This document shows, in pieces, positions 18,154-33,902 of a DNA stretch of 64,000 bases (positions within the stretch are counted from its first letter, which is position 1; each line of letters begins with the position of its first letter). This stretch comes from Methylibium petroleiphilum PM1 (lineage in GTDB: Bacteria; Pseudomonadota; Gammaproteobacteria; Burkholderiales; Burkholderiaceae_C): the NCBI RefSeq assembly GCF_000015725.1, contig NC_008825.1, positions 2,480,001 to 2,544,000 of the forward strand. Reading direction: 5' to 3'. Below the pieces are notes generated by a model. The model saw only the letters and a list, made by a program, of their open reading frames with translations. It was not told the DNA's origin and made no database searches. Position numbers and translations under genes: made by a program.

Positions 18154-18157
18154 AATG

Positions 18158-19322: not shown

Positions 19323-19708
19323 CTCCTGTTTGTCTTCTTCTGGTTCGGCCTCTCGGGCGCCAGCATCTACATCCGCATCCCGTCAGCACCTCCTTCGATT
19401 GCATCGCGTCGAAGCACTCATGCCTGTCGGGAGCCCGTCGCCGACACGCGCGGAGCTGGCCGGCGCACACAGCCGGACACTGAATGCTGATGGCCATGTT
19501 TGCTGCTGCCATGCCAGGGCGGGCGGCCAAGCAATATGACGCAGGCGTTCCTGCGAACCAGGGCCGCGAAGACGATGCTGCGTCCGCAAGGCTGGTAAAT
19601 CAGCCGGTGTGCCGAGCACCGCGCGCAGGCGCTCACGCGTGTCGGAGTTCGCGATCGGTGCAGCCGACGACGACACGCCGGCGTCAGGGCGGGCGTGCCG
19701 ATGCAGTT

Positions 19709-19988
19709 TCATGGGGGGGTCTTTCGGCTCACCCCGGTCGTGGCCTGGTCGGTCACGAAGCCCAGCTCCAACACCCCGGACTTCTGCGTAGCCGCCATCC
19801 CCTGGGCGACGCGCTCGTAGATCCACCAGGCGGTCGCCGCGGATGAAGTCCTCGGGCTGCGGTTGACGCGGCGCGGAGGCCTGCAGCCGCTGCGCGAGCT
19901 GCTCGTCGCCCATGCGTTCGTCGTTCCAGAACACGCTGCCGTGGGTAGTGACGGACAGGTTCGCCACGTCGGGCTTGATCGGCTTCAC
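19709..19988 (-). pseudogene. exbD: exbD remnant, 5'-truncated and frameshifted
   Basis: The minus-strand translation KPDVANLSVTTHGSVFWNDE followed by QPQPEDFIRGDR matches the periplasmic C-terminal half of ExbD, the TonB-ExbB-ExbD energiser. The transmembrane N-terminal half is missing. After RGDR the ExbD reading jumps frame: the continuation WIYERVAQGMAATQKSGV and LELGFVTDQATT is found one frame over and ends in a TGA at 19709-19711. A Fur-box-like sequence lies just upstream, consistent with a decayed iron-uptake gene. Confidence 0.75.
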
Positions 19989-20005
19989 TCCATTCAGACA
20001 CAGAT

Positions 20006-20024
20006 GTTAATGAGAATTATTATT
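20006..20024. promoter_or_regulatory. Fur-box-like site
   Basis: GTTAATGAGAATTATTATT matches the 19-bp Fur consensus GATAATGATAATCATTATC at 15 positions by my count. It lies just upstream of the exbD remnant on the minus strand. It also overlaps a weak plus-strand promoter-like pair (TTGATT at 20023, TGATAT at 20044, 15-nt spacer) that could serve the LysR gene at 20227. Confidence 0.5.
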
Positions 20025-20208
20025 GATTGTCCGTGGTTTTGTGTGATATGGCAACACCGATGGAATAACCCGGCCTTGCCTGGACACTCGCCGCCTCGCC
20101 GGCGACTGAAGGCCGGATGGCGGCAACTGGAAAGCCTCTGTGACCGGCATCGCCACCGGGAAGCACTCATGCGGTTCCCTACGGCCAGAGGAATGGACTC
20201 CACTTTCT

Positions 20209-20220
20209 GGGGGGGGGGGG
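20209..20220 (+). repeat. 12-base poly-G tract at the ribosome binding site of a LysR gene
   Basis: Twelve consecutive G residues end 6 nt before the ATG at 20227, just where the Shine-Dalgarno sequence should be. Homopolymer tracts of this length slip during replication, so the spacing or strength of the ribosome binding site could vary between cells. The count could also be inflated or reduced by sequencing error. Confidence 0.7.
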
Positions 20221-20226
20221 AAGTAC

Positions 20227-21138
20227 ATGAACTTACGCCATCTTCGCTGTTTCATCGCCGTGGCCGAGGAGTTGCACTTCGGCCGGGCGGCGCGAAGGCT
20301 GCATGTGGAGCAGTCACCCCTGTCGCGAACGATCCGCCAACTGGAGGCGGACTTGGGCGTGACGCTGCTGGAGCGCACGCCGCGCGGGGTGCGCCTGACC
20401 CCGGCCGGGCAGGTGTTCCTGGAGGAGGCCCGGCGCGTGCTGCTGACCCTTGAGCAAGCCCAGACCAAGGCGCGGGCGGTGGCGGCGGGACACCGGGGCA
20501 CCCTGCGCATCGCCCTGGCCGGCGGCGTCGGGCGGACCCGGCTGTCGGCGCTGCTCGCGCTGTGCCGGGAGGAGGCGCCGGAAGTGGGCATCCGGCTGTT
20601 CGAGGCGCCGCTGTCGCAGGTGGTGGGCGGGCTGGGCAACGACCTGTACGACGCGGCCTTTGCCATGGCCGGCGAGATAGATGCCGGGGTGGTCGCCATG
20701 CCGGTGTGGCAAGACCCGCTGGTGGTGGCCATACCCGCGCGGCACCCCTTGCTGGCGCACAAGCGGGTGCCGCTGGAAGAGGTGGTGGGCTACCCGCTGG
20801 TGCTGTGCCACCCGCAGGTGTGTGCGGAGTGCAGCCGGCAATGCGAGCGCCTGCTGCGCCTGGTGGAGACACCGTCGGTCGTGGCCGAGTACGTGACGAC
20901 CCACTCGCTGATGCTGGCCCTGGTGGCGGCCGGCTATGGCGTGGGATTTTCCACCGCGGCGCACGTGGTGGCACGCCGGCAGGCGGACGTAATCGTCCGG
21001 CCGCTGGATGAAGACTCGGCGGCGCTGACGACCTACCTGCTACATCCCGAGGGCGCGATGTCGGAGCCGCTGCGCCACTTCATCGACCGTGCGCAGCGTG
21101 TCGGCCATATGCCGTTGGATACGCAACGGCTCGCATGA
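20227..21138 (+). CDS. LysR-type regulator upstream of alpA (BisR-like position)
   Basis: The 303-residue protein has an N-terminal LysR helix-turn-helix (MNLRHLRCFIAVAEELHFGR, then VEQSPLSRTIRQLEADLG) and an effector-binding domain with an unusual Cys cluster HPQVCAECSRQCERLL near residue 200. In ICEclc, BisR, a LysR protein encoded on the alpA side, activates the alpA promoter; this gene has the right place and family, so an equivalent role is likely but inferred. The start at 20227 gives the standard LysR N-terminus; an upstream GTG at 20140 is in frame through the 12-G tract, so slippage would matter only if that start were used. Confidence 0.8.
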   Translation: MNLRHLRCFIAVAEELHFGRAARRLHVEQSPLSRTIRQLEADLGVTLLERTPRGVRLTPAGQVFLEEARRVLLTLEQAQTKARAVAAGHRGTLRIALAGGVGRTRLSALLALCREEAPEVGIRLFEAPLSQVVGGLGNDLYDAAFAMAGEIDAGVVAMPVWQDPLVVAIPARHPLLAHKRVPLEEVVGYPLVLCHPQVCAECSRQCERLLRLVETPSVVAEYVTTHSLMLALVAAGYGVGFSTAAHVVARRQADVIVRPLDEDSAALTTYLLHPEGAMSEPLRHFIDRAQRVGHMPLDTQRLA

Positions 21139-21669
21139 GGCTGCTTCAGGCGAGTTGGCCGATTCCATTTTGGTCAAAGCGCCAGACCCGTTATGTCATA
21201 GCGGGATTCCATTGACGCGGTGCACCGGCGCGCCGCACTCAGGCGTTGCTCGCGGTTGCGGTTGGCATCCTGCAATGAAATTCGCATGCCTATCGTGGCG
21301 CGTCACAGCGAAGACGCGCGGCGCAACAGTGCTTGCCGTATGCGCATCGGCTCTGGCGTGTTGAGCTGATCGCGCTTTACTGGGCCTTTTCCCCTGCAAA
21401 GACTTTGGCCTGGTTATCCGGGTCAGGCATGGTGCCCGCGAATGACGCTGGTGACAGCATGTTTCGCGGCTTGCGAATTGTGAGTGATGGCGCCATGCGC
21501 GGCAAGACGCACATCTCGCAACGAAACCGGCGGCATCGTCGATGCCACGGTCTTCGCCGCTTCGCCACTTGCTCGTTTCGCCCGGAGATTCCTGGACAGC
21601 CACGCACGCCGCCTGTACGGCGGGTGCGCGTGCTTGGACTCGGTGCGATGACGAATGGAGGCGCGCGAT
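21139..21669. other. 531-bp intergenic region between the LysR gene and the hypothetical gene
   Basis: I see no credible coding sequence here. The base composition is visibly less GC-biased than in the flanking genes. The gap must hold the promoter of the downstream hypothetical gene, but no clear -35/-10 pair stands out. TGGAGG at about 21654 is the ribosome binding site of the gene at 21670. Confidence 0.4.
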
Positions 21670-22431
21670 ATGCCGAAGTCGAGCAGCCTGGCCGATGGTG
21701 CCAAGACCTACTACCGCCCGATCGAGGCGGCAATCCGCTGGAGCGGATTGCTGCGCTTCGAGCGGCGCATCCTGGCGACCTTGGGACAGCGGCCTCTACC
21801 GGAGGCAACGGAGTTTCCGCGCTGGCCGATGCTGCGGTTGAACGCCGAAAGAATCTTCGATGCGCTGGCTCACGGCGAGATGCCGTATGGCAAGGAGGGC
21901 TTGGTGCGGGACACGCAGGGCCTGGCGATGGACGACCCGTCGCTGACGGTGCGGCACGTCGACCTGAAATCCTGGATGGCGCACCACTACCCCGGCGAGA
22001 GACCGGCGTTTCTGTTCGATGAGATCGAGCGTGCGCTTCACCCAGCGATCAGCCTGGACACAGTGGGCGCATTGCTGGCCGAGCGGGAAGCGATCAAGGC
22101 GCGGCTGGCGGAACACTTGGGCGTGCACGAGACGCTGCGCACCGAGCACGAGGCGCTGCTAAAAATGCACGCCGCCTGCGCGGCCGACGCGGAGCGTGCG
22201 AGCACGCCGGGGCCGCGCAGTGAATCGACCTACCTGAACATCGTTGGCGGGTTACTGACGCTACTGCTGGGCAAGTCGCCCAGCGGCATGCCGTATTCCA
22301 GCTTCCTGACGCAGGAAGCCATCATCAGCGCGATGGTGGCGCACCACGGCAACGCGATGGGCATCACCGAGCGCACCCTGCAGGCCAAGTTCGCACTGGC
22401 TCGGCGCAATCTGCAGAGCACAACTTCCTGA
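21670..22431 (+). CDS. Hypothetical ICE backbone protein upstream of alpA
   Basis: I do not recognise a domain in this 253-residue protein. It is mostly helical and soluble, with no signal peptide. A coiled-coil-like central part (AEREAIKARLAEHLGVHETL, then RTEHEALLKMHA) precedes a conserved-looking C-terminal part (STYLNIVGGLLTLLLGKSPS, then ITERTLQAKFALARRNL). The C-terminal part could be a nucleic-acid-binding or oligomerisation module; this is a guess from helix content only. GGAGG lies about 8 nt before the ATG. It sits directly before the alpA operators. Confidence 0.6.
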   Translation: MPKSSSLADGAKTYYRPIEAAIRWSGLLRFERRILATLGQRPLPEATEFPRWPMLRLNAERIFDALAHGEMPYGKEGLVRDTQGLAMDDPSLTVRHVDLKSWMAHHYPGERPAFLFDEIERALHPAISLDTVGALLAEREAIKARLAEHLGVHETLRTEHEALLKMHAACAADAERASTPGPRSESTYLNIVGGLLTLLLGKSPSGMPYSSFLTQEAIISAMVAHHGNAMGITERTLQAKFALARRNLQSTTS

Positions 22432-22441
22432 GCGATGCCAG

Positions 22442-22476
22442 ACCGTATCTGCGGTCGCGGAAACCGCATTTGCGGT
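22442..22476. promoter_or_regulatory. Tandem operator-like repeats upstream of alpA
   Basis: Two copies of ACCGYATYTGCGGT occur: ACCGTATCTGCGGT (22442-22455) and ACCGCATTTGCGGT (22463-22476). The second is a perfect inverted repeat. Their centres are 21 bp apart, two helical turns, so two protein units could bind the same DNA face. They lie about 75-100 bp before the alpA start, where the BisR-type LysR activator would be expected to act. Confidence 0.6.
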
Positions 22477-22549
22477 GTCTTTCTTCAACGCGGCGTTCTT
22501 AATTCGAGTCACGCCAATCAGCGCCACTGAGCGTTAAGGAGTGACCCTC

Positions 22550-22768
22550 ATGTCTTCGCAGACCACCGCCACGGCGGCACCGACCGAGCACCGCATCCTG
22601 CGCCGCGCCGAGGTCGAAGCCAAGACCGGCTTCAAGCGCGCGCACATCTACAGCCTGATGAAGGAAGGCAAGTTCCCCAAGGCGCTGCGCCTGGGCGTGC
22701 GCGCGGTGGGCTGGGACTCGGTGGAGATCGAACAGTGGATCGCCGAGCGCCTCAAAGAACGCGCCTGA
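22550..22768 (+). CDS. alpA: AlpA-family transcriptional regulator
   Basis: The 72-residue protein is an AlpA/excisionase-type winged helix: RRAEVEAKTGFKRAHIYSLM is the helix-turn-helix and LRLGVRAVGWDSVEIEQWI the wing and following helix. In ICEclc the alpA promoter heads the operon alpA-parA-shi-parB-bisC, whose last products turn on the transfer genes. AAGGAG lies 8 nt before the ATG at 22550; an in-frame GTG at 22541 overlaps that site and is rejected. The parA gene follows after 40 nt. Confidence 0.88.
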   Translation: MSSQTTATAAPTEHRILRRAEVEAKTGFKRAHIYSLMKEGKFPKALRLGVRAVGWDSVEIEQWIAERLKERA

Positions 22769-22808
22769 CGCTTCTTCTCGGTTCATGCCATTCGACGAGG
22801 AGAAGCCC

Positions 22809-23675
22809 ATGCAGGTGGTGTCCATCATTTCGACCAAGGGCGGCGTGGGCAAGACCACGACTGCGGCCAACCTGGGCGGCTTCATCGCCGATGCCGGGCT
22901 GCGCGTGCTGCTGCTGGACCTGGACGTGCAGCCCACGCTGTCGAGCTACTTCACGCTGGACGTGCGCGCGCCCGGCGGCATCTACGAGATGCTGGCCTTC
23001 AACGAGCGGCGCATCGAGCAACTGGTGTCGCGCACCGCGATCGCGGGCCTGGACCTGGTGCTCTCGAACGACGACCGCGGCGAACTGAACACGCTGCTGC
23101 TGCACGCTCCGGACGGGCGTCTGCGACTGCGGCATTTGCTTCCCACTTTCCGCACGCACTACGACCTGTTGTTGATCGATACGCAGGGCGCGCGCAGCGT
23201 GCTGCTGGAGATGGCAGTGCTGGCGTCCGACCTGGCGCTGTCGCCGGTAACACCGGAAATCCTTGCGGCGCGCGAGCTGCGGCGCGGCACGCTGCAACTG
23301 ATTGAGGACATCGCGCCGTATCGGCACCTGGGCATCGAGCCGCCACCGCTGCGCCTGCTCATCAACCGTGTGCATCCGGTGTCGTCGAACGCGCGGATGG
23401 TCCAGCAGGCGCTGCGACAGGTGTTCCAGGAACAGTCCGGTGTGCAGGTGCTGGACACCGACGTGCCGGCCATCGAAGCCTATCCACGCGCTGCGACACG
23501 AGGATTGCCGGTGCATCGGGTGGAGTACCGGCAGCCGGCTGGGCGAACGGCGCCCGCGGCACTGGAGACCATGCGTACGCTGGCCGGCGAGCTGTTCCCC
23601 GCGTGGCGGGAGCGCTTTTCGCTGGTCACCGGCCGGCCCGATGGGGGAGGGGCCGCCCATGGCGAGCGCGCGTGA
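22809..23675 (+). CDS. parA: ParA-family ATPase
   Basis: The 288-residue P-loop ATPase has the deviant Walker A KGGVGKTTTAANLGGF, the Walker A' LLLDLDVQPTLSSYF and the Walker B-like LLLIDTQGARS. It is of the partition ParA/Soj type and probably helps keep the excised, replicating element in dividing cells together with the ParB-like protein. GAGGAG lies before the ATG at 22809. It overlaps the following HicA-like gene by 17 nt, consistent with an operon. Confidence 0.92.
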   Translation: MQVVSIISTKGGVGKTTTAANLGGFIADAGLRVLLLDLDVQPTLSSYFTLDVRAPGGIYEMLAFNERRIEQLVSRTAIAGLDLVLSNDDRGELNTLLLHAPDGRLRLRHLLPTFRTHYDLLLIDTQGARSVLLEMAVLASDLALSPVTPEILAARELRRGTLQLIEDIAPYRHLGIEPPPLRLLINRVHPVSSNARMVQQALRQVFQEQSGVQVLDTDVPAIEAYPRAATRGLPVHRVEYRQPAGRTAPAALETMRTLAGELFPAWRERFSLVTGRPDGGGAAHGERA

Positions 23676-23895
23676 ACTGGCACGCGGCCGTGAGCGGCTG
23701 CGTGCGCTGATCGAGTTCGCGCAGGGCGAAGGCTGGCGCGTGGTGCGCACATCCGGCGGGCACCTGAAATTCACGAAACCAGGTTGCACGTCGATCTACA
23801 CCAGCTCGACTGCGAGCGACCATCGTGCCGACCGCAATGCCCGCGCGCAGCTTCGCCGCGCTGACCGGCAGGCGCAGGAGATCGGCCATGGCTGA
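23659..23895 (+). CDS. shi: Small HicA-like protein between parA and parB (shi-like)
   Basis: The 78-residue protein has a HicA-like double-stranded-RNA-binding fold core: LIEFAQGEGWRVVRTSGGHL then KFTKPG, with the His that is catalytic in HicA toxins. No HicB antitoxin is adjacent. In ICEclc a small gene called shi sits between parA and parB; position and size match. It overlaps parA by 17 nt and parB by 8 nt, so it is translated from the same mRNA. Whether it is an RNase is unknown. Confidence 0.75.
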   Translation: MASARELARGRERLRALIEFAQGEGWRVVRTSGGHLKFTKPGCTSIYTSSTASDHRADRNARAQLRRADRQAQEIGHG

Positions 23896-25546
23896 GCTGA
23901 CGCCCCAGGACATGGCTGCCAAGTTGTTGACCACCGGCTTCGAGCGCAGCGGCCCTTCGGCCGCGGCCTTGAGCGACCCCATCGCCGATACGCCGATGGT
24001 GGTGACGCTGGACCAGTTGCGGCCCTACGACCACGACCCGCGCGTGACGCGCAACCCGGCCTATGCGGAGATCAAGGCGTCCATCCGCGAACGCGGGTTG
24101 GACGCGCCCCCTGCGATCACACGCAGGCCGGGCGAGGCGCACTACATCATTCGCAACGGCGGCAACACGCGGCTGGCGATCCTGCGCGAGTTGTGGAGCG
24201 AGACCAAGGAGGAGCGCTTTTTTCGCATTGCGTGCCTGTTCCGCCCGTGGCCGGCGCGCGGCGAAATCGTGGCGCTGACCGGGCATCTGGCCGAGAACGA
24301 GCTGCGCGGCGGGCTGACCTTCATCGAGCGGGCCTTGGGCGTCGAGAAGGCGCGCGAGTTCTACGAGCAGGAAAGCGGCCAGGCGCTGTCGCAGAGCGAA
24401 CTCGCGCGGCGGCTGACTGCCGACGGCTATCCGGTGCCGCAGTCACACATCAGCCGCATGAACGATGCGGTGCGCTATCTGCTGCCGGCGATCCCGACGC
24501 TGCTGTACGGCGGATTGGGCCGGCATCAGGTGGACCGGCTCGCGGTGCTGCGCAAGGCGTGCGAGCGCACCTGGGAGCGGCGTGCGCTGGGCCGCACCGT
24601 GACCGTGGACTTCGCCACCTTGTTCCACGACGTGCTGACGCAGTTCGACACACAGCCGGACGACTTCTCGCCGCAGCGGGTGCAGGACGAGCTGGTGGGC
24701 CAGATGGCCGAGCTGCTGGAGGCGGACTACGACACGCTGGCGCTGGAGATCAACGACAGCGAAAGCCGCCAGCGTGCGCTGACCAGCGAACCGGCGGCGC
24801 CGACGCCACCGGCAGCGCCTTCCGTGCCTTCTGCTCCTCCCCCGCCGGTCTCCGCGCCTCAGCAGCCACCCGCCTCGTCTGTGCCGCGCGACACCACGCC
24901 AGCCGCGCCTCCGGCGCCAGCAGCAACACCGCCTGCACCGCCCGAAGCGCCGGAGGAGCAGCACGGGCAGCGCGACGAGCGCCTGCAAGGGCACATCGTG
25001 ACGCCGGCGCCGACCACCGAGCGCCTGCAGTCCATCCAACGGATGGTCGCGGACCAGCTCGGCGACAAGCTGCCCGACTTCGAGGCCGATGCGCTGCGTG
25101 CGATCCCCGTGCAGGCGGGCGGGCTCTATCCCATCTCGGACGTCTGGTACATCGAGCCGAGCTTGGACGTGCCGGATCGCCTGCGCGTGCACATCGCGCA
25201 ATTCGCGCGCGAGATCGCCGGGGACGCAGCGGTAGCCGACCACATCGAGGCCAGCGACGGCGGCATCGGCTTCGTCTGCGTGGCGCCGGCCGTGGGCCAG
25301 GCGAAGGCGCTGCCGGTGTTCGCGCGGGCAGTGCTGACCCTGCTGCATGCGCTGAGTGCAGCGCCGCCCGCCGCGAACGGATTGGACCGCGCGCGGCTGG
25401 CCGACGAGCTGGCGGCGCTGCTCCATGGCCATGGCGGCTCGGCCACACGCCTGAGCGATGCTGCGCTGGTGAAGCTGTTCCGTCTGCTGCGCCTGGCGCG
25501 CCGGCTGCTGGATCTGGAAGCCGGTGACCCGGGCCACGAGTCCTGA
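23888..25546 (+). CDS. parB: ParB-family protein of the ICE (BisD-like)
   Basis: The 552-residue protein has an N-terminal ParB/Srx nuclease-like domain (about residues 35-140: LRPYDHDPRVTRNPAYAEIK, IIRNGGNTRLAIL), a central helix-turn-helix region (LSQSELARRLTADGYPVPQS), a long Pro/Ala-rich linker (about 320-385) and a C-terminal domain. In ICEclc the corresponding ParB-like protein is BisD, which forms with BisC the activator that sustains expression of transfer genes and feeds back on its own promoter. It may also act with ParA in partition. The start at 23888 follows AGGAG and gives the conserved N-terminus. Confidence 0.88.
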   Translation: MAELTPQDMAAKLLTTGFERSGPSAAALSDPIADTPMVVTLDQLRPYDHDPRVTRNPAYAEIKASIRERGLDAPPAITRRPGEAHYIIRNGGNTRLAILRELWSETKEERFFRIACLFRPWPARGEIVALTGHLAENELRGGLTFIERALGVEKAREFYEQESGQALSQSELARRLTADGYPVPQSHISRMNDAVRYLLPAIPTLLYGGLGRHQVDRLAVLRKACERTWERRALGRTVTVDFATLFHDVLTQFDTQPDDFSPQRVQDELVGQMAELLEADYDTLALEINDSESRQRALTSEPAAPTPPAAPSVPSAPPPPVSAPQQPPASSVPRDTTPAAPPAPAATPPAPPEAPEEQHGQRDERLQGHIVTPAPTTERLQSIQRMVADQLGDKLPDFEADALRAIPVQAGGLYPISDVWYIEPSLDVPDRLRVHIAQFAREIAGDAAVADHIEASDGGIGFVCVAPAVGQAKALPVFARAVLTLLHALSAAPPAANGLDRARLADELAALLHGHGGSATRLSDAALVKLFRLLRLARRLLDLEAGDPGHES

Positions 25547-25563
25547 GCGCGCAGGAGGCTCCC

Positions 25564-26124
25564 ATGTCGGCACCGCACCCGCTCAACCAGGCCGTCATCG
25601 CCCAGGCGCTGCATGACCTGCGCAACGGCCAGTTGCGCCGCTGCAAGGCCATGGGCTTCGGCGAGGAGGAGCTGGATGCGCTGAAGCACCCCGAACTCGT
25701 GAGCATGCTGGTGAATGCCACGGTGTCGTGGTGTTCGGTGTCGGTGAACCGGGAGGTATTGAAGCGGCTTCTGAGCCAGGTGCACGACGTGGAGCGGGAG
25801 ATCGCCACGGTGGACCGCATGCTGCGCCTGGGGGCGAGCACGGAGATGGTTAGCAAGTTCTACGGCCTCACGCATCAGGAAGTGGCGCTGCGCCGTGACA
25901 TCCTCGGGCTACCCAAGCGCAAGGGCCGGCATCCGGTACTCGACGAGGCGCAGGACGTGGCCTTGTGGGAGCGCTGGAAGGCCGGCGTCACCGAGCGCCA
26001 TATCGCCCTGACCGACGACATGGCGATGCTGGCGCTGACCATGGACCTGGCCGAGGCCATGACCCTGCCCATGTCGGTGATCTGGTCGGCGATACGGAAC
26101 TGGATCGACCAGGGGCTGGTGTAG
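25564..26124 (+). CDS. bisC: DUF2857 protein (BisC-like activator subunit)
   Basis: The 186-residue protein is of the DUF2857 family found only in this class of ICE. It is all-helical in appearance, with LRRCKAMGFGEEELDALKHP near residue 25 and GASTEMVSKFYGLTHQEVAL near 90, the latter resembling a helix-turn-helix. In ICEclc this position is bisC, an FlhC-like subunit acting with BisD. FlhC zinc-binding cysteines are not evident here. It starts 17 nt after parB with GCAGGAGG before the ATG, and 2 nt separate it from the STY4528-type gene. Confidence 0.8.
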   Translation: MSAPHPLNQAVIAQALHDLRNGQLRRCKAMGFGEEELDALKHPELVSMLVNATVSWCSVSVNREVLKRLLSQVHDVEREIATVDRMLRLGASTEMVSKFYGLTHQEVALRRDILGLPKRKGRHPVLDEAQDVALWERWKAGVTERHIALTDDMAMLALTMDLAEAMTLPMSVIWSAIRNWIDQGLV

Positions 26125-26126
26125 CC

Positions 26127-27329
26127 ATGACCACGGGCAGCGCACCACGGCGCGATGGCCCGGTTGCGCTGTCGGCGTTGTTCGACGAGGCGCTGCGGCA
26201 CCTTGAGCCGAAGGAACCGGCGCAGGGCACGGCGCCGAGCCAGGACTGCTTTCTCTACAGCGGCAACCGGCACGAGAGCGTCCCGCGCGCGCTGTTCCTC
26301 GACCGGCGCCTGACGCCGCTGGAGCGCAATGCCTGGCAGGTGTTCCGCCTGCAGCTCAACGACGACGGCGTGACCGCCTTTCCTACCTACGACCAGCTCC
26401 GCCCCTATCTGGCGTCCATGCCCTGTGCGTCGCAAGCCTCGCACGAGACCGTGGCGCGCGCCTTGACGCTGCTGCGGCTGACACGCTGGCTCAGCCTGGT
26501 GCGGCGGCGGCGCGATCCCAGGACCGGCCGTATCCAAGGCAACCTCTACGTGCTGCACGACGAACCGCTGTCGCCCTTCGAGGCGATGCAGCTCGATGCC
26601 GACTACCTCGGCCTGGTCAGTCAGGCGCTGACCCATGCCGCCAAGGCGGTACAGATGGTGGGCATGAACACGCTCAAGGAGATTGCCGAAGACCCGCTGC
26701 TCAGCGGCCGCACGCTGCCGACCCGCCTGCAGGTGCTCGCGCAGCGCATGGCGCGGCATGGCTGGACGACGCCAGGTTATCCACAGGAGGGTGCCGGCCA
26801 CGAATCCGAAGAGGGCCAGGAAGCCCTTCTTCGGAATGCTGCGCGCCCGTCTTCGGAATCCGAAGCAGGGCCGAAACCCGCGCCGGACGGCTCTCTTCGG
26901 ATTCCGAAGGAGGACCGTACAGTACGTAATGATCGTATAAATGAAGTACGTACAGTACCGCGCGCGAGGGCCTTGCAGAACCTGCGACTGCCCGAGCGTT
27001 TCCTGCGCTTGAAGGATGAGCAGCAGGCAGGCGCGTTGGTGGCCCTGCAGCAGGTGGACGAAGCGCAGCGGCAGGCCGTGCTCGACGAGTGGGCGGCACG
27101 CTGTGGCGGCAGTACGGTGCGCAATCCCGCCGGCTACTTGTTCGGCATCATCCAGAAGGCGATCCGCGGGGAGTTCAAGGCGTGGGCGGGCAACGACGCA
27201 GCAGCGCCGCCCGCGCCGCGAGCTGCGGGGCCGGCGCCATCGTCGTCGCCTTCGGCTTCCCGCCCAGCCGACCCCGAGGTGGCGCGCGCCTACCTCGCAC
27301 GGCTGCGTTCAGCCTTGCGCGATCCCTGA
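26127..27329 (+). CDS. STY4528-family ICE replication protein
   Basis: The 400-residue protein has an N-terminal domain (about residues 40-200: FLDRRLTPLERNAWQVFRLQ, TYDQLRPYLAS, HETVARALTLLRLTRWLSLV) that looks like a replication-initiator winged helix, a Ser/Glu/Pro-rich linker (about 220-275) and a C-terminal domain ending in a short basic tail (RAYLARLRSALRDP). STY4528-type proteins are annotated as pathogenicity-island replication proteins. The DNA encoding the linker carries a DnaA box, iteron-like repeats and an AT-rich island, an arrangement like lambda gene O. It closes the alpA operon, and a palindrome overlaps the region just after its stop. Confidence 0.78.
   Translation: MTTGSAPRRDGPVALSALFDEALRHLEPKEPAQGTAPSQDCFLYSGNRHESVPRALFLDRRLTPLERNAWQVFRLQLNDDGVTAFPTYDQLRPYLASMPCASQASHETVARALTLLRLTRWLSLVRRRRDPRTGRIQGNLYVLHDEPLSPFEAMQLDADYLGLVSQALTHAAKAVQMVGMNTLKEIAEDPLLSGRTLPTRLQVLAQRMARHGWTTPGYPQEGAGHESEEGQEALLRNAARPSSESEAGPKPAPDGSLRIPKEDRTVRNDRINEVRTVPRARALQNLRLPERFLRLKDEQQAGALVALQQVDEAQRQAVLDEWAARCGGSTVRNPAGYLFGIIQKAIRGEFKAWAGNDAAAPPAPRAAGPAPSSSPSASRPADPEVARAYLARLRSALRDP
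26777..26958. other. Candidate replication origin inside the STY4528-type gene
   Basis: The segment holds, in order, a perfect DnaA box TTATCCACA (26777-26785), the nonamer family ATTCCGAAG/CTTCGGAAT in six copies (26802-26811 with one mismatch, 26829-26837, a 15-bp palindrome CTTCGGAATCCGAAG at 26851-26865 holding two, and CTTCGGATTCCGAAG at 26895-26909 holding two), then an inverted repeat GTACAGTACGTA (26917-26928) / TACGTACAGTAC (26947-26958) around an AT-rich 18-nt island. This layout is that of an iteron-type origin. Function is inferred. Confidence 0.55.
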
Positions 27330-27330
27330 G

Positions 27331-27347
27331 CTATCCCCAGGGGATAG
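27331..27347. repeat. 17-bp palindrome CTATCCCCAGGGGATAG, copy 1
   Basis: This perfect palindrome lies 1 nt after the STY4528 stop codon and about 70 bp upstream of the -10 box of the toxin-antitoxin genes. Identical copies occur at 28391-28407 and 30310-30326, each preceded by GAG. It has no T-run and is more likely a protein-binding site than a terminator. Confidence 0.75.
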
Positions 27348-27385
27348 ACGGAACAGGTCGCCTTCCAGCTGGGGGAGCAGACCGC

Positions 27386-27415
27386 TTGGAACTGTGCTCA
27401 AACTGTGCGTATAAT
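27386..27415 (+). promoter_or_regulatory. Promoter of the Xre-RES toxin-antitoxin operon
   Basis: TTGGAA (27386-27391) and a perfect TATAAT (27410-27415) are 18 nt apart and 35 nt before the antitoxin ATG. A direct repeat AACTGTGC (27390-27397 and 27401-27408) lies in the spacer, a good place for autoregulatory antitoxin binding. Confidence 0.7.
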
Positions 27416-27449
27416 GTGCTCGTGATTCCTTGCCTTTGGGAGCAACGTC

Positions 27450-27821
27450 ATGGCCTCTACCGCTTTCGCGGATGTGCTCGAATCGGTGCGTGAAGCCGGC
27501 ACGTCCCGCTTTTCCGCCACGAACGTCGCCGATGCCCTGGGCCTGCAGTACCAGGACTTGGCCACGCTGGCTGGGGTGCACCGCAACACCCTGCGCACCC
27601 ACCCCGAATCCCCGCGGCTCCAGGCCGCGCTGCGTGACCTGATGCGGGTGCTGTCGGCCGCCACGGCGGTGCAGCCGGATACCGCGCGTGCGTTCTTCAT
27701 GGTCAAGAACGAACCCATTCCGGCGTTCCACCACAAGACCCTGCTGCAGTTGGTGCAGGAAGGACGCACCGACGATGCGATCGACTACCTGGAGTCGATC
27801 AGTGCAGGGTTCACCGGATGA
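27450..27821 (+). CDS. Xre/MbcA/ParS-type antitoxin
   Basis: The 123-residue protein has an N-terminal helix-turn-helix (ATNVADALGLQYQDLATLAG) and a C-terminal DUF2384/MbcA-like region (FFMVKNEPIPAFHHKTLLQL then VQEGRTDDAIDYLESI), the usual antitoxin for RES toxins. It is expected to bind and inactivate the RES toxin and to repress its own promoter through the N-terminal domain. It overlaps the toxin gene by 4 nt (ATGA), as in most toxin-antitoxin pairs. It stabilises the element after loss, by family analogy. Confidence 0.85.
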   Translation: MASTAFADVLESVREAGTSRFSATNVADALGLQYQDLATLAGVHRNTLRTHPESPRLQAALRDLMRVLSAATAVQPDTARAFFMVKNEPIPAFHHKTLLQLVQEGRTDDAIDYLESISAGFTG

Positions 27822-28345
27822 TCCTCCTCGACCTGCCGCCCGGCACCACGCTGTTTCGTGCGCACACGCCGCAGTGGGCCAGCCGGCCCACCAGCGGCGC
27901 CGGTGCGGCGGCCAAGGGCGGTCGCTTCAACCGGGAGGGCGTCGAGGCGCTGTATCTGTCGCTGGAGGAAGTGACCGCGTTACGCGAGTACCAGCAGACC
28001 TCGCCCTTCCTGCCGCCCTGCACGATGTGCTCGTACACCGCGAACTTGCGCGGACTGGTCGATCTGCGGCAGCTCCACCGCGGCGAGCCCTGGGACGAGC
28101 TGTGGCACGACTGGCGCGAGGACTGGCGCCATCTGAAATTCGAACTTCACATCGAGCCGCCCACCTGGGTGCTGGGCGACATGGTGCTGGCCCAGGGCCA
28201 TACCGGAATCCTGTTCCCCAGCCAGGCGAACGATGGCGGCACCAATATCGTGGTGTTCGTGGATCGGCTCAGGGATGGCAATTCGGTCGAGGTCAATGAT
28301 CCCGACGGGCGACTGCCCCGCGACCAATCCAGTTGGACGCGCTGA
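27818..28345 (+). CDS. RES-domain toxin
   Basis: The 175-residue protein shows the RES family residues: Arg in TLFRAHTPQW, GGRFNREGVEALYLSLEE with Tyr and Glu, and Ser in PSQANDGGTNIVVF. RES toxins consume NAD+ (NAD phosphorylase or hydrolase activity) and stop growth. It pairs with the Xre-type antitoxin whose stop overlaps its start. The pair lies within the ICE backbone between the replication gene and the PFL_4669-family gene, so it probably acts as an addiction module for the element. Confidence 0.88.
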   Translation: MILLDLPPGTTLFRAHTPQWASRPTSGAGAAAKGGRFNREGVEALYLSLEEVTALREYQQTSPFLPPCTMCSYTANLRGLVDLRQLHRGEPWDELWHDWREDWRHLKFELHIEPPTWVLGDMVLAQGHTGILFPSQANDGGTNIVVFVDRLRDGNSVEVNDPDGRLPRDQSSWTR

Positions 28346-28390
28346 CTCCACAGCGCGGATTCGCACTCCACCCTTCGGCCCGCCGCCGAG

Positions 28391-28407
28391 CTATCCCCAG
28401 GGGATAG
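28391..28407. repeat. 17-bp palindrome CTATCCCCAGGGGATAG, copy 2
   Basis: Identical to the copy at 27331 and placed between the RES toxin and the PFL_4669-family gene, about 120 bp before its ATG. The downstream sequence again contains CCTTCC about 12-15 nt after the palindrome. Confidence 0.75.
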
Positions 28408-28528
28408 CCGGCACACACAGCCTTCCGCGCAGAACAAACCGGGCGCGCATGGGCTGCGGTTTGTTGACTGACAGCCTTCCGGCCGATGCCGATGCTGGCG
28501 ACTCGCCAATTCACCGCGAGTCGCTCCC

Positions 28529-29317
28529 ATGGCCAACGAACGCACAGAACCCCTGCAACTGAATCTCGGATCGCTGCGCAGCGCGATGTCGCTGACACTG
28601 CACACACACCACGCTTCGCGCATCTGGCACGGCCGCGCGCCGACCGAAGGACGCGCCGGCATCATCGGACTCAACGGCTTCATCAGTGCGATGAACAAGA
28701 TGAAGCGCGGCGCCGAGCAGGACGACCCGTACTCGGATTGGTGGATGTTGCGGATCGAGGACAAGCTCGCCGACACCAAGACCCGTCTGCAGACCCTGCG
28801 CGAACAGGTGGACCAGGCGTTGGCCGACGTGCCAGCGGCGCTGTCGCTGGGCGAGAACATGAACGTGCAGCCGGTGAAGCTGCCGCTGTTCGTGAACGCC
28901 CAGCTCGGCTTCATGGCGGTGTACCTGCTGGCCGACTACGACGACTTGGCGCGCAAACTCATCCTGGCGCACCACACGGCGCTGATCGACCGCAGCACCT
29001 TGGAGCGCTGGCTCAATGATGGTGCGCACGCGCTGCGCAGCCTGTTCTCGCTGGCCCAGCAGTACCGCTACTCGGGCACGACGCGCGACGACTTCGCGGC
29101 AAAGAACGCGGCGGCGCGAGCGGCGCTGGAGAAGTTCGGCGAGTTGCCGCAGGACGTGCTGGAAGGCACGCGCCGCTCGCGCTTCGCGCCACCGATCGCG
29201 CGGCGGACGACCAAGCCCGGCGCGCCGCCTGCAGCGCCCGCCATCGAGCCCGATGCGCCGGCTCACACGGATGGCGCAGCCGATGGTGCGGCGGGCGATG
29301 AGGGTGCGGGCGCATGA
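28529..29317 (+). CDS. PFL_4669-family ICE protein (TIGR03761)
   Basis: The 262-residue soluble protein belongs to the family of conserved ICE proteins named after Pseudomonas PFL_4669. Visible pieces are a conserved N-terminal half (SLTLHTHHASRIWHGRAPTE), a helical middle (DPYSDWWMLRIEDKLADTKT) and a disordered Pro/Ala-rich tail. Its function is unknown; it always travels with the DUF3158, ssb and topB genes, which suggests a part in DNA processing of the excised element. Its stop overlaps the start of the next gene (ATGA), so the three genes to ssb form one translation unit. Confidence 0.8.
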   Translation: MANERTEPLQLNLGSLRSAMSLTLHTHHASRIWHGRAPTEGRAGIIGLNGFISAMNKMKRGAEQDDPYSDWWMLRIEDKLADTKTRLQTLREQVDQALADVPAALSLGENMNVQPVKLPLFVNAQLGFMAVYLLADYDDLARKLILAHHTALIDRSTLERWLNDGAHALRSLFSLAQQYRYSGTTRDDFAAKNAAARAALEKFGELPQDVLEGTRRSRFAPPIARRTTKPGAPPAAPAIEPDAPAHTDGAADGAAGDEGAGA

Positions 29318-29862
29318 CAGCATCGATCCCCATCAGCCACTCCACGCGCTTCGTGGCGCTGGAACAGGCGGACTTCCAGCGGCTGGAACACGCAGGCTAC
29401 CTAAAAGGCCTTTTACAGCCTTTTAAGGGTAAGGGGAGTCTGGAGACCTGGGCCAGCCAGTGCGCAGCGCTGCGCGACGACGTGATTGGCCTGGCGCAGC
29501 GGCGCGTGCTGCCCCAGGCGCGCGCCTACCCCTTCAGCCTGCTCCACGTGCAACTGGCCCAGCAGGCCACTGGCGCAGGGACGACCTTCCTGCGCTGGCG
29601 CAACCTCGACCGTTCCTCCATGGGCGTGGCGTTGTGGGAGGCCCTGCTGGCCAACCCCGCGACGCCGGCCTCGCTGATCGACGAGCTGTACGCGATCGAA
29701 CTGCAGCGCATCGTGCTGAACATGCAGATCAGCCTGACCCACAGCATCGCTCGCCAAGCCCTGGAATGCGCCAACAAGGCCGCGCAGGCCGAAGCGGCTT
29801 ACCTGCGGCGCGTCCACGGGCATACCGCGTCCGTTCCACCCACCACCAAGGAGTCACCATGA
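29314..29862 (+). CDS. DUF3158 ICE protein (InrR-like position)
   Basis: The 182-residue protein is of DUF3158 type. It starts MTASIPISHSTRFVALEQAD and has two amphipathic helical regions and no membrane segment. In ICEclc the gene directly upstream of ssb is inrR, needed for full integrase expression and known for bistable expression; this gene has that place, so it is a likely homologue, but my assignment is by position and size. It overlaps both neighbours by 4 nt. Confidence 0.7.
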   Translation: MTASIPISHSTRFVALEQADFQRLEHAGYLKGLLQPFKGKGSLETWASQCAALRDDVIGLAQRRVLPQARAYPFSLLHVQLAQQATGAGTTFLRWRNLDRSSMGVALWEALLANPATPASLIDELYAIELQRIVLNMQISLTHSIARQALECANKAAQAEAAYLRRVHGHTASVPPTTKESP

Positions 29863-30242
29863 GCACGCACTTCGTCGGCGAGGGCAACATCGGTTCTGCG
29901 CCGGACTACCGCGAATTTCCGAACGGCAACGACGAGCCACGCCGGCTGCTTCGCCTGAACGTCTACTTCGACAACCCGATCCCGAAGAAGGACGGCGAGT
30001 ACGAAGATCGCGGCGGCTTCTGGGCGCCCGTGGAGCTGTGGCACCGCGACGCCGAGCACTGGAAGACGCTGTACCAGAAAGGCATGCGGGTGCTGGTCGA
30101 GGGCCGCACCGTTCGCGACGAATGGGAGGACGCCGACGAGAACGAGCGCGTCACGTTCAAGGTCGAGGCCCGGCGCGTGGGCATCCTGCCGTACCGCATC
30201 GAGTCGGTGGCGCTCAGCGCCAAGCCCGCCGGCGGGCAGTAA
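29859..30242 (+). CDS. ssb: Single-stranded DNA-binding protein of the ICE
   Basis: The 127-residue protein has an OB-fold pattern (RLLRLNVYFDNPI, FWAPVELWHRDAEHW, RVLVEGRTVRDEW) but lacks the acidic C-terminal tip of housekeeping SSB. It probably coats element single strands during replication or transfer. AAGGAG precedes the ATG at 29859, which overlaps the DUF3158 stop. In ICEclc ssb expression is limited to transfer-competent cells; similar control is likely here. Confidence 0.85.
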   Translation: MSTHFVGEGNIGSAPDYREFPNGNDEPRRLLRLNVYFDNPIPKKDGEYEDRGGFWAPVELWHRDAEHWKTLYQKGMRVLVEGRTVRDEWEDADENERVTFKVEARRVGILPYRIESVALSAKPAGGQ

Positions 30243-30309
30243 TTCGCCCATCGCCGTTCCCCCGAGGGCGGCTGTAGCAACCGTCATACGCCCGCGATGC
30301 ACCAGCGAG

Positions 30310-30326
30310 CTATCCCCAGGGGATAG
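30310..30326. repeat. 17-bp palindrome CTATCCCCAGGGGATAG, copy 3
   Basis: Identical core to the copies at 27331 and 28391. Here the symmetry extends by three more bases on each side (GAG ... CTC). It lies between ssb and topB, about 210 bp before the topB start, in the 294-bp gap 30243-30536, which otherwise shows no gene. Confidence 0.75.
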
Positions 30327-30536
30327 CTCCAAGGTCGTCCTCGGAGTTCCAGCCGCCCTCCCGAAACGACGCTCTTGCTGTGCCAGCTCCTGCGGTCTAT
30401 GCGCACCGCTGCAGCAACGGACCGCCTGCCGATCACAAAGCGGTGTCTGCATCAATCGGCTTCCTTGCTGCCGGCATCTCCTGGCCCCGCCAAGCTGACG
30501 CCCATCCGATGAACCGCACATTTCCGAGGAGGCTTC

Positions 30537-32552
30537 ATGCGCGTGTTCCTGTGCGAGAAGCCGTCCCAGGGCAAGGACATCGCCCGTGTGCTGGGTGCCG
30601 GTCAACGCGGCAACGGCTGCTACAGCGGCGCGGGTGTCGTCGTGACCTGGTGCATCGGTCATTTGGTGGAGGCGGTTCCGCCCGAAGGCTACGGCGAGCA
30701 ATACAAGCGCTGGGCCATCGAACAACTGCCTATTCTTCCTGAGCGTTGGCGTGTCGAGCCCAAGGCGGCGACCGCAGCGCAATTCAAGGTCGTGCAGCAG
30801 CTCGTCGCCAAGGCGGGCGAGCTGGTGATCGCGACTGACGCCGACCGCGAGGGCGAGATGATCGCCCGCGAGATCATCGACCTATGCGGCTACCGCGGGC
30901 CGATTCAGCGCCTGTGGCTGTCGGCGCTCAACGATGCGTCGATCCGCAAAGCGCTGGGTGCGCTCAAGCCGTCCGACGAGACGCTGCCGCTGTATTTCTC
31001 CGCACTCGCCCGATCGCGCGCCGACTGGCTGATTGGGATGAACCTGAGCCGCTTGTTCACACTGCTGGGGCGCCAGGCCGGCTATACCGGCGTGCTGTCG
31101 GTGGGGCGCGTGCAGACGCCGACGCTGAAGTTGGTCGTGGACCGCGATCGCGAGATCGCGCGATTCGTCTGCGTACCGTTCTGGGCCATCGAGGTTGCGC
31201 TTTCGCATGCAGGCCAGTCCTTCGTCGCAAGCTGGACGCCGCCGCAAGGCAGCGCCGACGACGCCGACCGCTGCTTGCAGCAGCCGGTGGCGCAGCAGGC
31301 AGCGGAATTCCTGCGCGCGGCCGGCACCGCCCAGGTGCTGTCGGTGGAGACCGAGCGCGTGCGCGAAGGGCCGCCGCTGCCGTTCGACCTGGGCACGCTG
31401 CAGGAGGTGTGCTCCAAGCAGTTGGGCCTCGACGTGCAGGAGACGCTGGACATTGCCCAGGCGCTGTACGAGACGCACAAGGCGACAACGTATCCGCGCT
31501 CGGATTCGGGCTACCTGCCCGAGAGCATGCTGGCCGAGGTGCCGACGGTACTCAACAGCCTGGTCAAGACCGACCCCAGCTTGCGGCCGCTGATCGAGCG
31601 CCTGGATCGCCAACAGCGTTCGCGTGCATGGAACGACGGCAAGGTGTCGGCTCACCACGGCATCATCCCGACGCTGGAGCCCGCCAACCTGTCGGCCATG
31701 AACGAGAAGGAACTGGCCGTCTACCGGCTGATCCGCGCTCATTACCTCGCGCAGTTCCTCCCACACCATGAGTTCGACCGGACGGTGGCGCAGTTCTCGT
31801 GCGGCAGTCAGTCGCTGGCGGCCGTGGGCAAGCAGATCGCCGTCATCGGCTGGCGTGAGGTGCTGGCGACGCCGGGGCCGGACGATGCCGATGGCGAGGA
31901 TGCGCAGCGCAGCCAGGTGCTGCCCGCCCTGCATGCGGGCCTGTCCTGCCCGGTCGGAAAGGTGGATCTCAAGGCGCTGAAGACGCTGCCGCCCAAACCC
32001 TACACGCAGGGCGAGCTGATCAAGGCCATGAAGACCGTCGCCAAGCTCGTGACCGACCCGCGCCTGAAGCAGAAGCTGCGAGATACCACCGGCATCGGCA
32101 CCGAGGCGACACGCGCCAACATCATCAACGGTCTGATCGGTCGCGGCTACCTGGTCAAGAAAGGCCGCGCCGTCCGCGCTTCCGACGCGGCATTCACGCT
32201 CATCGACGCGGTGCCCTCAGCCATCGCCGACCCCGGCACCACGGCGGTGTGGGAGCAGGCGCTCGACATGATCGAGGCCGGCCAGATGACGCTGGACACC
32301 TTCATCGAGAAGCAGTCCGTGTGGGTCGGCCAGCTCGTGCAGCAGTACCGCGGCGCAACGCTCTCGCTCAAGCTGCCGCCGGCGCCGGCCTGCCCGCAGT
32401 GCGCCGCACCGATGCAGCAGCGCACGGGCAAGAGCGGCGCGTTCTGGTCCTGCTCGCGCTACCCGGACTGCAAGGGCACGTTGCCGATCGAGTCCCCGAC
32501 GGGCCGGCGCAGCGCACCGCGCAAGCGGCGCGCTGCCTCCAAGGCGTCCTGA
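30537..32552 (+). CDS. topB: DNA topoisomerase III of the ICE
   Basis: The 671-residue type IA topoisomerase begins with a Toprim domain (FLCEKPSQGKDIARVLGA; acidic triad region ATDADREGEM), has the active-site Tyr in TTYPRSDSGYLPES, and ends with a zinc-ribbon (CPQCAAPMQQRTGKSGAFWS, then CSRYPDC). It decatenates or relaxes element DNA during replication and transfer. GAGGAGG precedes the ATG. It is longer at its C-terminus than E. coli TopB because of the zinc-ribbon, as usual for ICE-encoded forms. Confidence 0.94.
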   Translation: MRVFLCEKPSQGKDIARVLGAGQRGNGCYSGAGVVVTWCIGHLVEAVPPEGYGEQYKRWAIEQLPILPERWRVEPKAATAAQFKVVQQLVAKAGELVIATDADREGEMIAREIIDLCGYRGPIQRLWLSALNDASIRKALGALKPSDETLPLYFSALARSRADWLIGMNLSRLFTLLGRQAGYTGVLSVGRVQTPTLKLVVDRDREIARFVCVPFWAIEVALSHAGQSFVASWTPPQGSADDADRCLQQPVAQQAAEFLRAAGTAQVLSVETERVREGPPLPFDLGTLQEVCSKQLGLDVQETLDIAQALYETHKATTYPRSDSGYLPESMLAEVPTVLNSLVKTDPSLRPLIERLDRQQRSRAWNDGKVSAHHGIIPTLEPANLSAMNEKELAVYRLIRAHYLAQFLPHHEFDRTVAQFSCGSQSLAAVGKQIAVIGWREVLATPGPDDADGEDAQRSQVLPALHAGLSCPVGKVDLKALKTLPPKPYTQGELIKAMKTVAKLVTDPRLKQKLRDTTGIGTEATRANIINGLIGRGYLVKKGRAVRASDAAFTLIDAVPSAIADPGTTAVWEQALDMIEAGQMTLDTFIEKQSVWVGQLVQQYRGATLSLKLPPAPACPQCAAPMQQRTGKSGAFWSCSRYPDCKGTLPIESPTGRRSAPRKRRAASKAS

Positions 32553-33071
32553 TCCTCGCTTCCCCCTGCCGCGCCGGCCACTTCACTGGCGGCGAGGCAA
32601 ACGTCCCGCACCGCGCGGGACTCCAAAGCGCGCGTCTCCTTCTGCAACGGTGTGCGCGCCCCGTCTGCCCGCCATCGGGCGACGGGGCGAGAAGGTCATT
32701 GCTCCACGAATCGCTCCCGCCGCCATTCCCTTGATCGGTGTGCGTTGCCTCGGTCACGAGGGGCTTCCTGACGCCTTGCCGCCGCGCGAGCCGTGAGGAG
32801 GCCCCTTGGGCCGAGGGTATTCCGTGCCGGTGCCCGCCGGCGAAACATCGGGCTCCCTTTGTGTGTGGATGCACGCCAGAGGTTTCCGGCCCCAGCCACG
32901 AAACGGGCCGGGTGCGATTGCTGACGCAGCGAACGGCTTTGACGACGGCCTGCGCTGACGCAGCCCACAGGTGGTTTTCCTTCCTCTCCAGCCGAAGGCC
33001 CGCGTGGCCTTCGGCGATTAGTCATTTCACTGATGCACCTCTGTGTCCCGGGATGTCCTTGCGAGGGCACA
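32553..33071. other. 519-bp non-coding stretch after topB, left junction of the arsenic block
   Basis: I see no credible gene. A GTCCCGC/GCGGGAC hairpin lies at 32603-32621 without a T-run. The 11-mer GCTGACGCAGC occurs twice in direct orientation (32920-32930, 32954-32964). The stop of the ArsC-ArsN fusion is at the right border, so the cargo junction is somewhere here. Confidence 0.4.
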
Positions 33072-33902
33072 TCACAGTGACATTCGACGTCCAAGCAGCA
33101 CGGCGCTCGAAGGACAAAGGCTTGCGGCCTGCCGTGTGGCAAGGATGGCCGCCGGTGCGGCGCTGCGCTCGATTGGCTTGAAGCCCGCGCGCTCGAAGAA
33201 CGGCGCCGCCGTCGTGGTCAGTAGCCAGGCGTCGCGCCCGCCCTCGTCGAAGGCACGGCGCAGCAGCAGTGCGAACATTCCGCCGCCGATGCCGCGATGG
33301 CGTGCGTGTGGCAGCACCACCAGGGAGCGCACGAGCACGTCTCGGCCCAGGCGCTCGAAGCCGCCGTAGCCCACGCGCTCGCCGGACACCGTGGCATAGG
33401 CGAAGAAGCTGCGCCCTGGTTCGGCCAGGTCGTCCGTGGGAAGCACGGCCTCTTGCAAAGCCAGGGCGAGGTCCGGGTCGCTGCCGGCGATCGGCGTATC
33501 CACCAGCAGCGGCGTGCCATCCTCCTTGCGGTTCTCGCCCGCCGGTCGTTGCGGCAGCAGGTCGATCACCGTGTCCGAGGGGCGGCACAGGCGCACGCCC
33601 GAGCGCGACACCACGATGGGCCGATTGATGAGGATCGGGTACGCCAGCATCTGATCGATCAACTGGTCGTCGCTCCAATGCGCGGCATCCAGGCCCAGTT
33701 CCTTGTAGGGCGTGCCCTTGATGCGCAACACATCCCGCACGCCCATGCCCATCCGCGCGATCAGCGCCTTCAAGGTCTCGCGGTCGGGCGGCGTTTTCAG
33801 GTACTCGATGACCGTGGGCTCGATGCCGCTGGCGCGGATCAGCGCCAGCGTGTTGCGCGACGTGCCGCAGTCCGGGTTGTGGTAGATCGTGACGGTACTC
33901 AT
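33072..33902 (-). CDS. arsC: ArsC-ArsN fusion: glutaredoxin-type arsenate reductase with GNAT acetyltransferase
   Basis: The 276-residue protein joins two resistance domains. Residues 1-140 are a glutaredoxin-dependent arsenate reductase (TIYHNPDCGTSRNTLALIRA with the catalytic Cys, then RPIVVSRSGVRLCRPSDTVI). Residues about 150-260 are a GNAT acetyltransferase of ArsN type (RSLVVLPHARHRGIGGGMFA acetyl-CoA loop, FFERAGFKPIERS). ArsC reduces arsenate to arsenite; ArsN proteins acetylate glutamate-analogue arsenicals such as arsinothricin. The start at 33902 overlaps the acr3 stop by 4 nt. It is the last gene of the arsR operon. The C-terminal 12 residues or so look replaced by element sequence near the junction. 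Confidence 0.85.
   Translation of the reverse strand: MSTVTIYHNPDCGTSRNTLALIRASGIEPTVIEYLKTPPDRETLKALIARMGMGVRDVLRIKGTPYKELGLDAAHWSDDQLIDQMLAYPILINRPIVVSRSGVRLCRPSDTVIDLLPQRPAGENRKEDGTPLLVDTPIAGSDPDLALALQEAVLPTDDLAEPGRSFFAYATVSGERVGYGGFERLGRDVLVRSLVVLPHARHRGIGGGMFALLLRRAFDEGGRDAWLLTTTAAPFFERAGFKPIERSAAPAAILATRQAASLCPSSAVLLGRRMSL

Follow-up and report, generated by a model that had tools for sequence, protein, structure and literature searches.

Organization of the locus

The window analyzed in this work, a 64-kb stretch of the Methylibium petroleiphilum PM1 genome, carries a gene of the STY4528 family that encodes a predicted replication initiator (Table 1). The protein scores 406.9 bits against the NF040582 profile (STY4528_fam; labeled at NCBI as pathogenicity island replication protein), above the curated cut-off of 130 bits, and its start matches the annotated start of a relative (L136) in the alignment. 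A gap of 2 bp separates this start from the end of a bisC homologue, for which we take the name from PMC7423338, and genes for a ParB-domain protein and a ParA-family protein lie further upstream. The ICEclc operon is given in the text of PMC7423338 as parA-shi-bisD-bisC-orf96323; the operon of the window corresponds to it, orf96323 being STY4528 by gene order. The order ParA-ParB-initiator is present in the window and in the regions of 14 of 19 relatives, and the neighbors of STY4528 across relatives are ParB, BisC, SSB and TopB, often with ParA and DnaB as well. Downstream of STY4528 the window presents a RES/Xre-like toxin-antitoxin pair, PFL_4669/AcaB, DUF3158 and TopB. The toxin-antitoxin pair occupies 27450-28345, between STY4528 and PFL_4669, where L136 has a RelE/ParE-type toxin gene. 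Elsewhere on the plus strand of the window the radC RNA motif (Rfam RF01754) occurs twice, at 36445-36590 and 50285-50433 (117 and 131 bits).

Table 1 Features of the STY4528 locus and of the element embedded in it, in window positions
Feature	Position	Strand	Basis or remark
ParA-family gene	22785-23675	+	Family profile matches
ParB-domain gene (bisD homologue)	23825-25546	+	TIGR03764, E 4.5e-120
bisC homologue (DUF2857), operon gene upstream of STY4528	25564-26124	+	PF11198, E 2.5e-64
STY4528-family gene, 400 aa, predicted replication initiator	26127-27329	+	NF040582, E 1.1e-121
N-terminal domain, aa 42-193, helices and beta hairpin, putative iteron binder	26250-26705	+	AlphaFold2
Embedded origin-like element; constraint over codons 217-278, predicted disordered linker	26775-26960	+	Synonymous constraint, pLDDT
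Exact DnaA box TTATCCACA	26777-26785	+	Sequence match
Single nonamer AATCCGAAG, right half of iteron	26803-26811	+	Centre 54 bp before that of first palindrome
Single nonamer ATTCCGAAG, left half-site	26829-26837	-	Centre 22 bp before that of first palindrome
Palindromic iteron CTTCGGAATCCGAAG, 15 bp	26851-26865	.	Nonamers 26851-26859 (-) and 26857-26865 (+)
Palindromic iteron CTTCGGATTCCGAAG, 15 bp	26895-26909	.	Nonamers 26895-26903 (-) and 26901-26909 (+)
Left arm of 12-bp inverted repeat GTACAGTACGTA	26917-26928	+	Inverted-repeat scan
AT-rich island, 18 nt, candidate DNA-unwinding element	26929-26946	.	13/18 A+T
Right arm of 12-bp inverted repeat TACGTACAGTAC	26947-26958	+	Inverted-repeat scan
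C-terminal domain, aa 283-355, motif NPxGYLxxxxxxAxxGEF	26973-27191	+	Model; RepC motif match

An origin-like element inside the predicted initiator gene

A first-pass annotation of this DNA had described a DnaA box inside the STY4528 replication gene, together with six nonamers, a pair of 15-bp palindromes and an AT-rich island within 12-bp inverted repeats. All of these are present where it had placed them, and the profile match bears out the identity of the gene; our analysis refines the boundaries, as strong synonymous constraint spans about 26775-26960. The exact DnaA box TTATCCACA occurs once in the 64-kb window, against 0.03 expected copies. The nonamers (consensus AWTCCGAAG) are three copies of ATTCCGAAG and three of AATCCGAAG, with two standing alone and four paired in the two palindromes, and the single copies follow the spacing pattern of the palindromes, with centres 32, 22 and 44 bp apart. 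When up to two mismatches are allowed, the palindrome CTTCGGAWTCCGAAG has two matches in the 64-kb window, which are the two palindromes of the element (0.07 expected); the exact palindrome has two copies in the genome of 4,643,639 bases, both at this site. The arms of the inverted repeat are 92% complementary and are separated by 18 nt, and the AT-richest 36 nt of the window gene begin within the left arm and cover the island. Against 300 codon shuffles that keep the protein, the window linker is enriched in repeated 9-mers (p 0.003), short palindromes (p 0.027) and inverted repeats with an AT spacer (p 0.017).

The element lies between two predicted domains of the protein. Two AlphaFold2 models were obtained, the first poor (mean pLDDT 45) and the second better (61). 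The N-terminal domain, with ten-residue mean pLDDT of 52-89, is predicted to be winged-helix-like, by inspection of the model. The linker (residues 194-281) has pLDDT<50 over most of its length, and the C-terminal region (residues 281-350) is modeled as helical, with ten-residue means of 66-82. A fold search of the PDB returned no match at E<=0.001, and the Foldseek viral library gave one match at this threshold, a phage HTH protein (E 8.2e-4) of low TM-score. A profile-based sequence search of the PDB produced two weak matches, the best of them a ribosomal protein (E 0.012), and both were rejected as implausible.

Selection at the DNA level among near relatives

Near relatives were collected by a search with six patterns, one of them in the linker; 78 of the 80 loci used also have a pattern outside the linker. 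Among these best 80 of 231 relatives (77-97% identity), all six CTTCGGA nonamer cores are kept in 71, and the remaining nine have five cores, the sixth being altered at one or two bases. The DnaA box is exact in 79 of the 80, and the relative positions of the box and the cores are identical in all 80. Two further relatives (L106 and L107) have a DnaA box with one mismatch. In L071 (Pseudomonas bharatica CSV86; gene at 3001) the STY4528 frame stops after 296 codons, and the segment upstream of that stop holds all six cores and the DnaA box.

For the same best 80 of 231 relatives, the amino-acid-corrected codon entropy over codons 217-278 is 0.428 of expectation, and the lowest ratio among 216 other, non-overlapping segments of equal length is 0.884. 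The most invariant bases largely match the DnaA box, the nonamers and the GTAC repeats. The encoded linker is itself variable: its amino-acid entropy (0.39 for codons 217-278, compared with 0.11 for codons 42-193 and 0.23 for codons 283-355) exceeds that of 176 of the 216 segments, and the entropy of the two tails is higher still (0.60 for codons 1-41 and 0.90 for codons 356-400). The proposal that the DNA rather than the protein is under selection here is upheld, with a synonymous ratio of 0.43 despite a linker entropy of 0.39, as is the expectation that repeats and DnaA box persist in relatives while the linker protein varies, which it does more than both folded domains. Selection at this site acts at the DNA level inside a coding sequence.

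Recurrence of the layout in divergent family members

At E<=0.001, and with the PM1 genome itself included, the STY4528 family is present in 22 of 398 genomes of a phylum sample and in 29 of 369 genomes of a class sample, with 11 and 16, respectively, above the curated cut-off; it is present also in 33 plasmid records. The P. veronii plasmid NZ_CP039632.3 (W07) carries two STY4528 genes about 150 kb apart. From 65 loci (L082-L146), 15 without a tblastn match to the window protein and 9 with partial or duplicate matches were omitted, and the 41 that remained, with the window and six near relatives, made up 48 genes, or 36 after dereplication at <85% identity. Outside the linker, 30 of these 36 share 22-46% identity with the window protein.

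Repeated 9-mers in the linker exceed the protein-keeping null in 29 of the 36 genes (p<0.01, 300 shuffles), compared with 1 of 71 control segments from the same genes (p<=0.01, 100 shuffles; 5 of 71 are listed at p<0.05). Linker palindromes reach p<0.05 in 21 of the 36, and the inverted repeat with AT spacer does so in 25. The linker repeats miss p<0.01 in seven genes (L088, L091, L111, L112, L115, L134 and L146); the linker DNA of L091, when read directly, is without the layout. L121 is an open reading frame of 259 residues, with a linker that is hard to place. The AT-richest 36 nt of the gene lie in the linker for 31 of the 36, always in its 3' half, against 9.4 expected for the whole linker.

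The iterons are clade-specific, mostly palindromic and located 5' of the AT-rich island, and their usual number is three to five per linker (by eye, 48 genes). The ICEclc type is CTTCGGAWTCCGAAG; pKLC102 and Enterobacterales have AGTTCGGAWTCCGAACT and near variants, ICEHin1056 has AGTTCCAAAATGGAACT, and L109, L116 and L117 have ACTTCAAAATCTGAAGT, AGTTCAAAATTTGAACT and TGTGCAAATATTGCACA. The linkers of L122 and L123 present a second palindrome type beside the iterons, for example TGGCCACACTGTGGCCA. The island 3' of the iterons is usually found within inverted repeats of GTAC or GTAGTAG type. A protein tree calculated without the linker for 34 genes (L091 and L121 left out; L108 and L118 are long branches) divides 13 genes of GTAGTAG type from 21 others, 17 of GTAC type and 4 unclassified (96/99); the type of island agrees with the protein tree. 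Eight of the 36 members have the exact DnaA box, which is therefore a clade feature. The architecture first claimed for the window recurs in divergent members with altered iteron sequences.

Spacing and reading frames were examined in 15 genes with TTCGG-core iterons. The distances between iteron centres are 32-22-44 bp in the window clade and L086, 44-54-44 in L085 and L139 (likewise in L141, with one extra half-site), 33-21-45-44 in L082, and 45-44 in L084, L143 and L146, while L083 and L138 have additional half-sites at 10-12 bp. Half-sites were also matched away from the arrays (for example in L086, L137, L139, L143 and L146), and these strays were excluded from the iteron counts; in the window and in L137 a CCGAA lies 11 bp beyond the first palindrome. 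Most of the centre distances approximate a multiple of 11 bp, about a whole number of DNA turns. The spacings in L108, L116 and L089 are also near such multiples; the pattern is absent in L109 and L117 (36 and 24 bp) and poor in L087 (63 bp). Because of their spacing, the TTCGG-core iterons occupy more than one reading frame in each gene (two or three), with three in L085, L138, L139 and L141 and two in the window; the iterons of L108 and L109 are all in one frame. It is striking that a single gene of this type can maintain one DNA motif in as many as three reading frames.

Function of the site

What we observe is the anatomy of the site, selection on its DNA, the return of the layout in other family members, a palindrome found nowhere else in the genome, and the ParB-BisC-STY4528 setting. 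From these we infer that the site is very probably a vegetative replication origin (oriV) located within the gene for the initiator that acts on it. As in iteron-type theta origins, multiple short repeats lie near a predicted initiator, with an adjacent region that is AT-rich in composition and a DnaA box. Dimers of STY4528 would use the N-terminal winged-helix-like domain to bind the palindromic iterons, and would be aligned on one face of the DNA. This complex would open the 3' AT-rich island within its inverted repeat, and the C-terminal domain may help to load the replicative helicase. About half of the scored relatives would use a DnaB encoded by the element itself; in the ICEclc-type clade the helicase may be the DnaB of the host, with the DnaA box added.

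The distribution of dnaB was examined with two queries in the retrieved stretches of DNA, the window clade being counted once. A dnaB gene lies near parB in 11 of 21 scored relatives (10 by search of the retrieved DNA, L145 by annotation), and the surroundings of the window gene (15000-34000) yielded none. Three of the 10 relatives without dnaB have the exact DnaA box, compared with 0 of the 11 with their own (Fisher p 0.09), a comparison in which ParA is missing in three of the ten (L112, L115 and L134) and L141 and L116-L119 are among the unscored. That the DnaA box is seen only where no dnaB was found is thus suggestive only.

Among alternatives, it is improbable that the palindromes are a partition centromere (parS-like) bound by BisD, the ParB-domain protein of the operon, with no origin at the site. 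Centromeres are commonly built of palindromes clustered close to par genes, and in the regions of the window and 19 relatives a ParB-domain gene lies upstream of STY4528 in 20 of 20 and ParA is present in 15 of 20. However, a centromere predicts neither the DnaA box nor an AT-rich island beyond the iterons on their 3' side (31 of 36 genes), and it gives no reason for the array to lie in the STY4528 linker over other positions in the operon. We see very little chance that the site serves as an operator for BisDC, for STY4528 itself or for another transcriptional regulator. BisDC, described in PMC7423338 as the master activator of ICEclc, is encoded next door, but the palindrome is confined to the site (in the 64-kb window and, for exact matches, in the genome) and is therefore no multi-promoter operator; no sigma-70-like match lies within the site, and the 27-bp promoter motif of ICEclc is described in PMC9286271 as having no other significant match on that element. 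It is likewise highly improbable that the element works as RNA, with mRNA hairpins that control translation or decay: the site transcript folds much more strongly than shuffles (z -8.1), as inverted repeats do whatever their purpose, but spacings that mostly approach multiples of 11 bp, the single half-sites and the DnaA box point to double-stranded DNA, and no Rfam family is present at the site at gathering score.

Published data on ICEclc count against the reading of the STY4528 site as an origin. According to the account in PMC6561031, loss of traI or oriT1 lowered the copy number of ICEclc in transfer-competent cells. Copy number no longer distinguished these cells from the others when oriT1 was missing, and still did so without traI (P 0.0195). 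These data point mainly to replication by TraI/oriT1, and therefore an oriV there would be a second or host-specific route; the authors allow additional replication mechanisms (PMC6561031).

Plasmids that carry STY4528 bear on the same question. In the PLSDB tables, pKLC102 (first 100 of 103.5 kb) and the whole S. zhaodongensis plasmid are without another annotated initiator, and a Pantoea plasmid with an STY4528 gene has a second one; the absence of a second initiator is weak evidence because the PLSDB gene tables are incomplete. According to PMC7685784, pKLC102 can be present at up to 30 circular copies per chromosome and is postulated to have an oriV. Just downstream of its STY4528 gene, pKLC102 has about 15 copies of a G+C-rich 57-bp repeat (L139:5370-6235), and this array is an alternative candidate for the origin. 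In five STY4528 plasmids GC skew was uninformative, as the cumulative minimum lies near the gene (1.3 kb) in one of the five and the ranges are noise-like.

An origin embedded in STY4528 would explain how these elements are copied after leaving the chromosome. Metabolic, metal-resistance and other cargo genes travel between beta- and gammaproteobacteria on such elements. Some of the elements are known to replicate after excision, yet their Rep protein and oriV had been unclear. Our analysis names one gene and one 186-bp segment as the candidate Rep and oriV, with the same layout in most of the divergent relatives examined. In the literature searched, subscription papers (including the original one on pKLC102) aside, we found no report of an origin inside the STY4528 coding sequence, and a paper that names STY4528 simply lists it. 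The text of PMC2258188 presents a putative oriV with iteron-like repeats in ICEHin1056, said to resemble those of pKLC102, SPI-7 and PAPI. The ICEclc-related ICEnahCSV86 of Pseudomonas bharatica is said in PMC9298801 to have no predicted origin; the L071 gene, from the host strain, has the site and may lie on ICEnahCSV86 or on another of the three islands of that strain.

Comparison with known systems

PFGI-1 resembles the STY4528 site by description. Its putative oriV, published in 2009, is described in PMC2647930 as having, in an AT-rich half, four 23-bp palindromes that hold TTCGGAATCCGAA and share the core of those in the window. It lies upstream of PFL_4669, after which the gene next to STY4528 in many relatives, on its downstream side, is named. 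In the literature searched, TTCGGAATCCGAA was found in PMC2647930 alone. That account adds a G+C-rich half with 46-bp repeats, states that PFGI-1 encodes no Rep protein and, unlike what we see at the STY4528 site, does not describe the repeats as inside an initiator gene.

In RA3 (IncU), oriV lies at the 3' end of the initiator gene repB according to PMC9455977, compared with the central linker in STY4528. The repABC plasmids have ParA, ParB and the initiator in an operon, as here, and their oriV is described in PMC3155836 as lying in an AT-rich part of the initiator gene; the putative oriV of STY4528 is likewise AT-rich. The oriV in repC of p42d is given there as without iterons or DnaA boxes, and of 17 RepC genes one was positive in our repeat test. 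The C-terminal motif of STY4528 aligns with the RepC C-terminus over 23 columns (probability 91, score 43), for which controls scored at most 16 in 20 shuffles and 13 when reversed. The N-terminal domain gave no match to RepC (probability 5), and two-domain homology was not found. A full-length match to RepC (hhalign, 353 columns, probability 80) came from a set with apparently wrong open reading frames for L149 and L163 and a short one for L157; without these three it shrinks to the 23-column motif, and the wider claim was dropped. We put forward only tentatively, as a possibility that we rather doubt, that the ICEclc/pKLC102/SPI-7/ICEHin1056 superfamily is a replicon family of its own, with a ParA-ParB-BisC-Rep operon and the origin within rep. 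It would be distantly related to alphaproteobacterial repABC through the C-terminal domain of the initiator, its iterons would have been re-coded clade by clade together with the initiator, and elements without DnaB would have gained the DnaA box to borrow that of the host.

The first-pass annotation had likened the site to lambda gene O, and as anatomy this comparison holds. Four annotated 18-bp iterons lie within the coding sequence of the lambda initiator, as in STY4528, and are followed by an AT-rich stretch that we read in its sequence, as at the STY4528 site; gene O is positive in the same repeat test (p 0.003). The lambda iterons lie in the linker of O. Searches against PHROG families gave weak O-like matches for L112 (E 8.7e-5 and 0.15) and L139 (0.031) and none for the window protein. 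The iteron sequences and their spacing differ between the two systems and, unlike lambda, STY4528 sits on an integrative conjugative element with its own ParA/ParB. What the STY4528 site has in common with lambda O-type origins is repeats within the initiator coding sequence that are selected as DNA. The site in STY4528 is most likely an embedded origin, and would be a new family of this known design.
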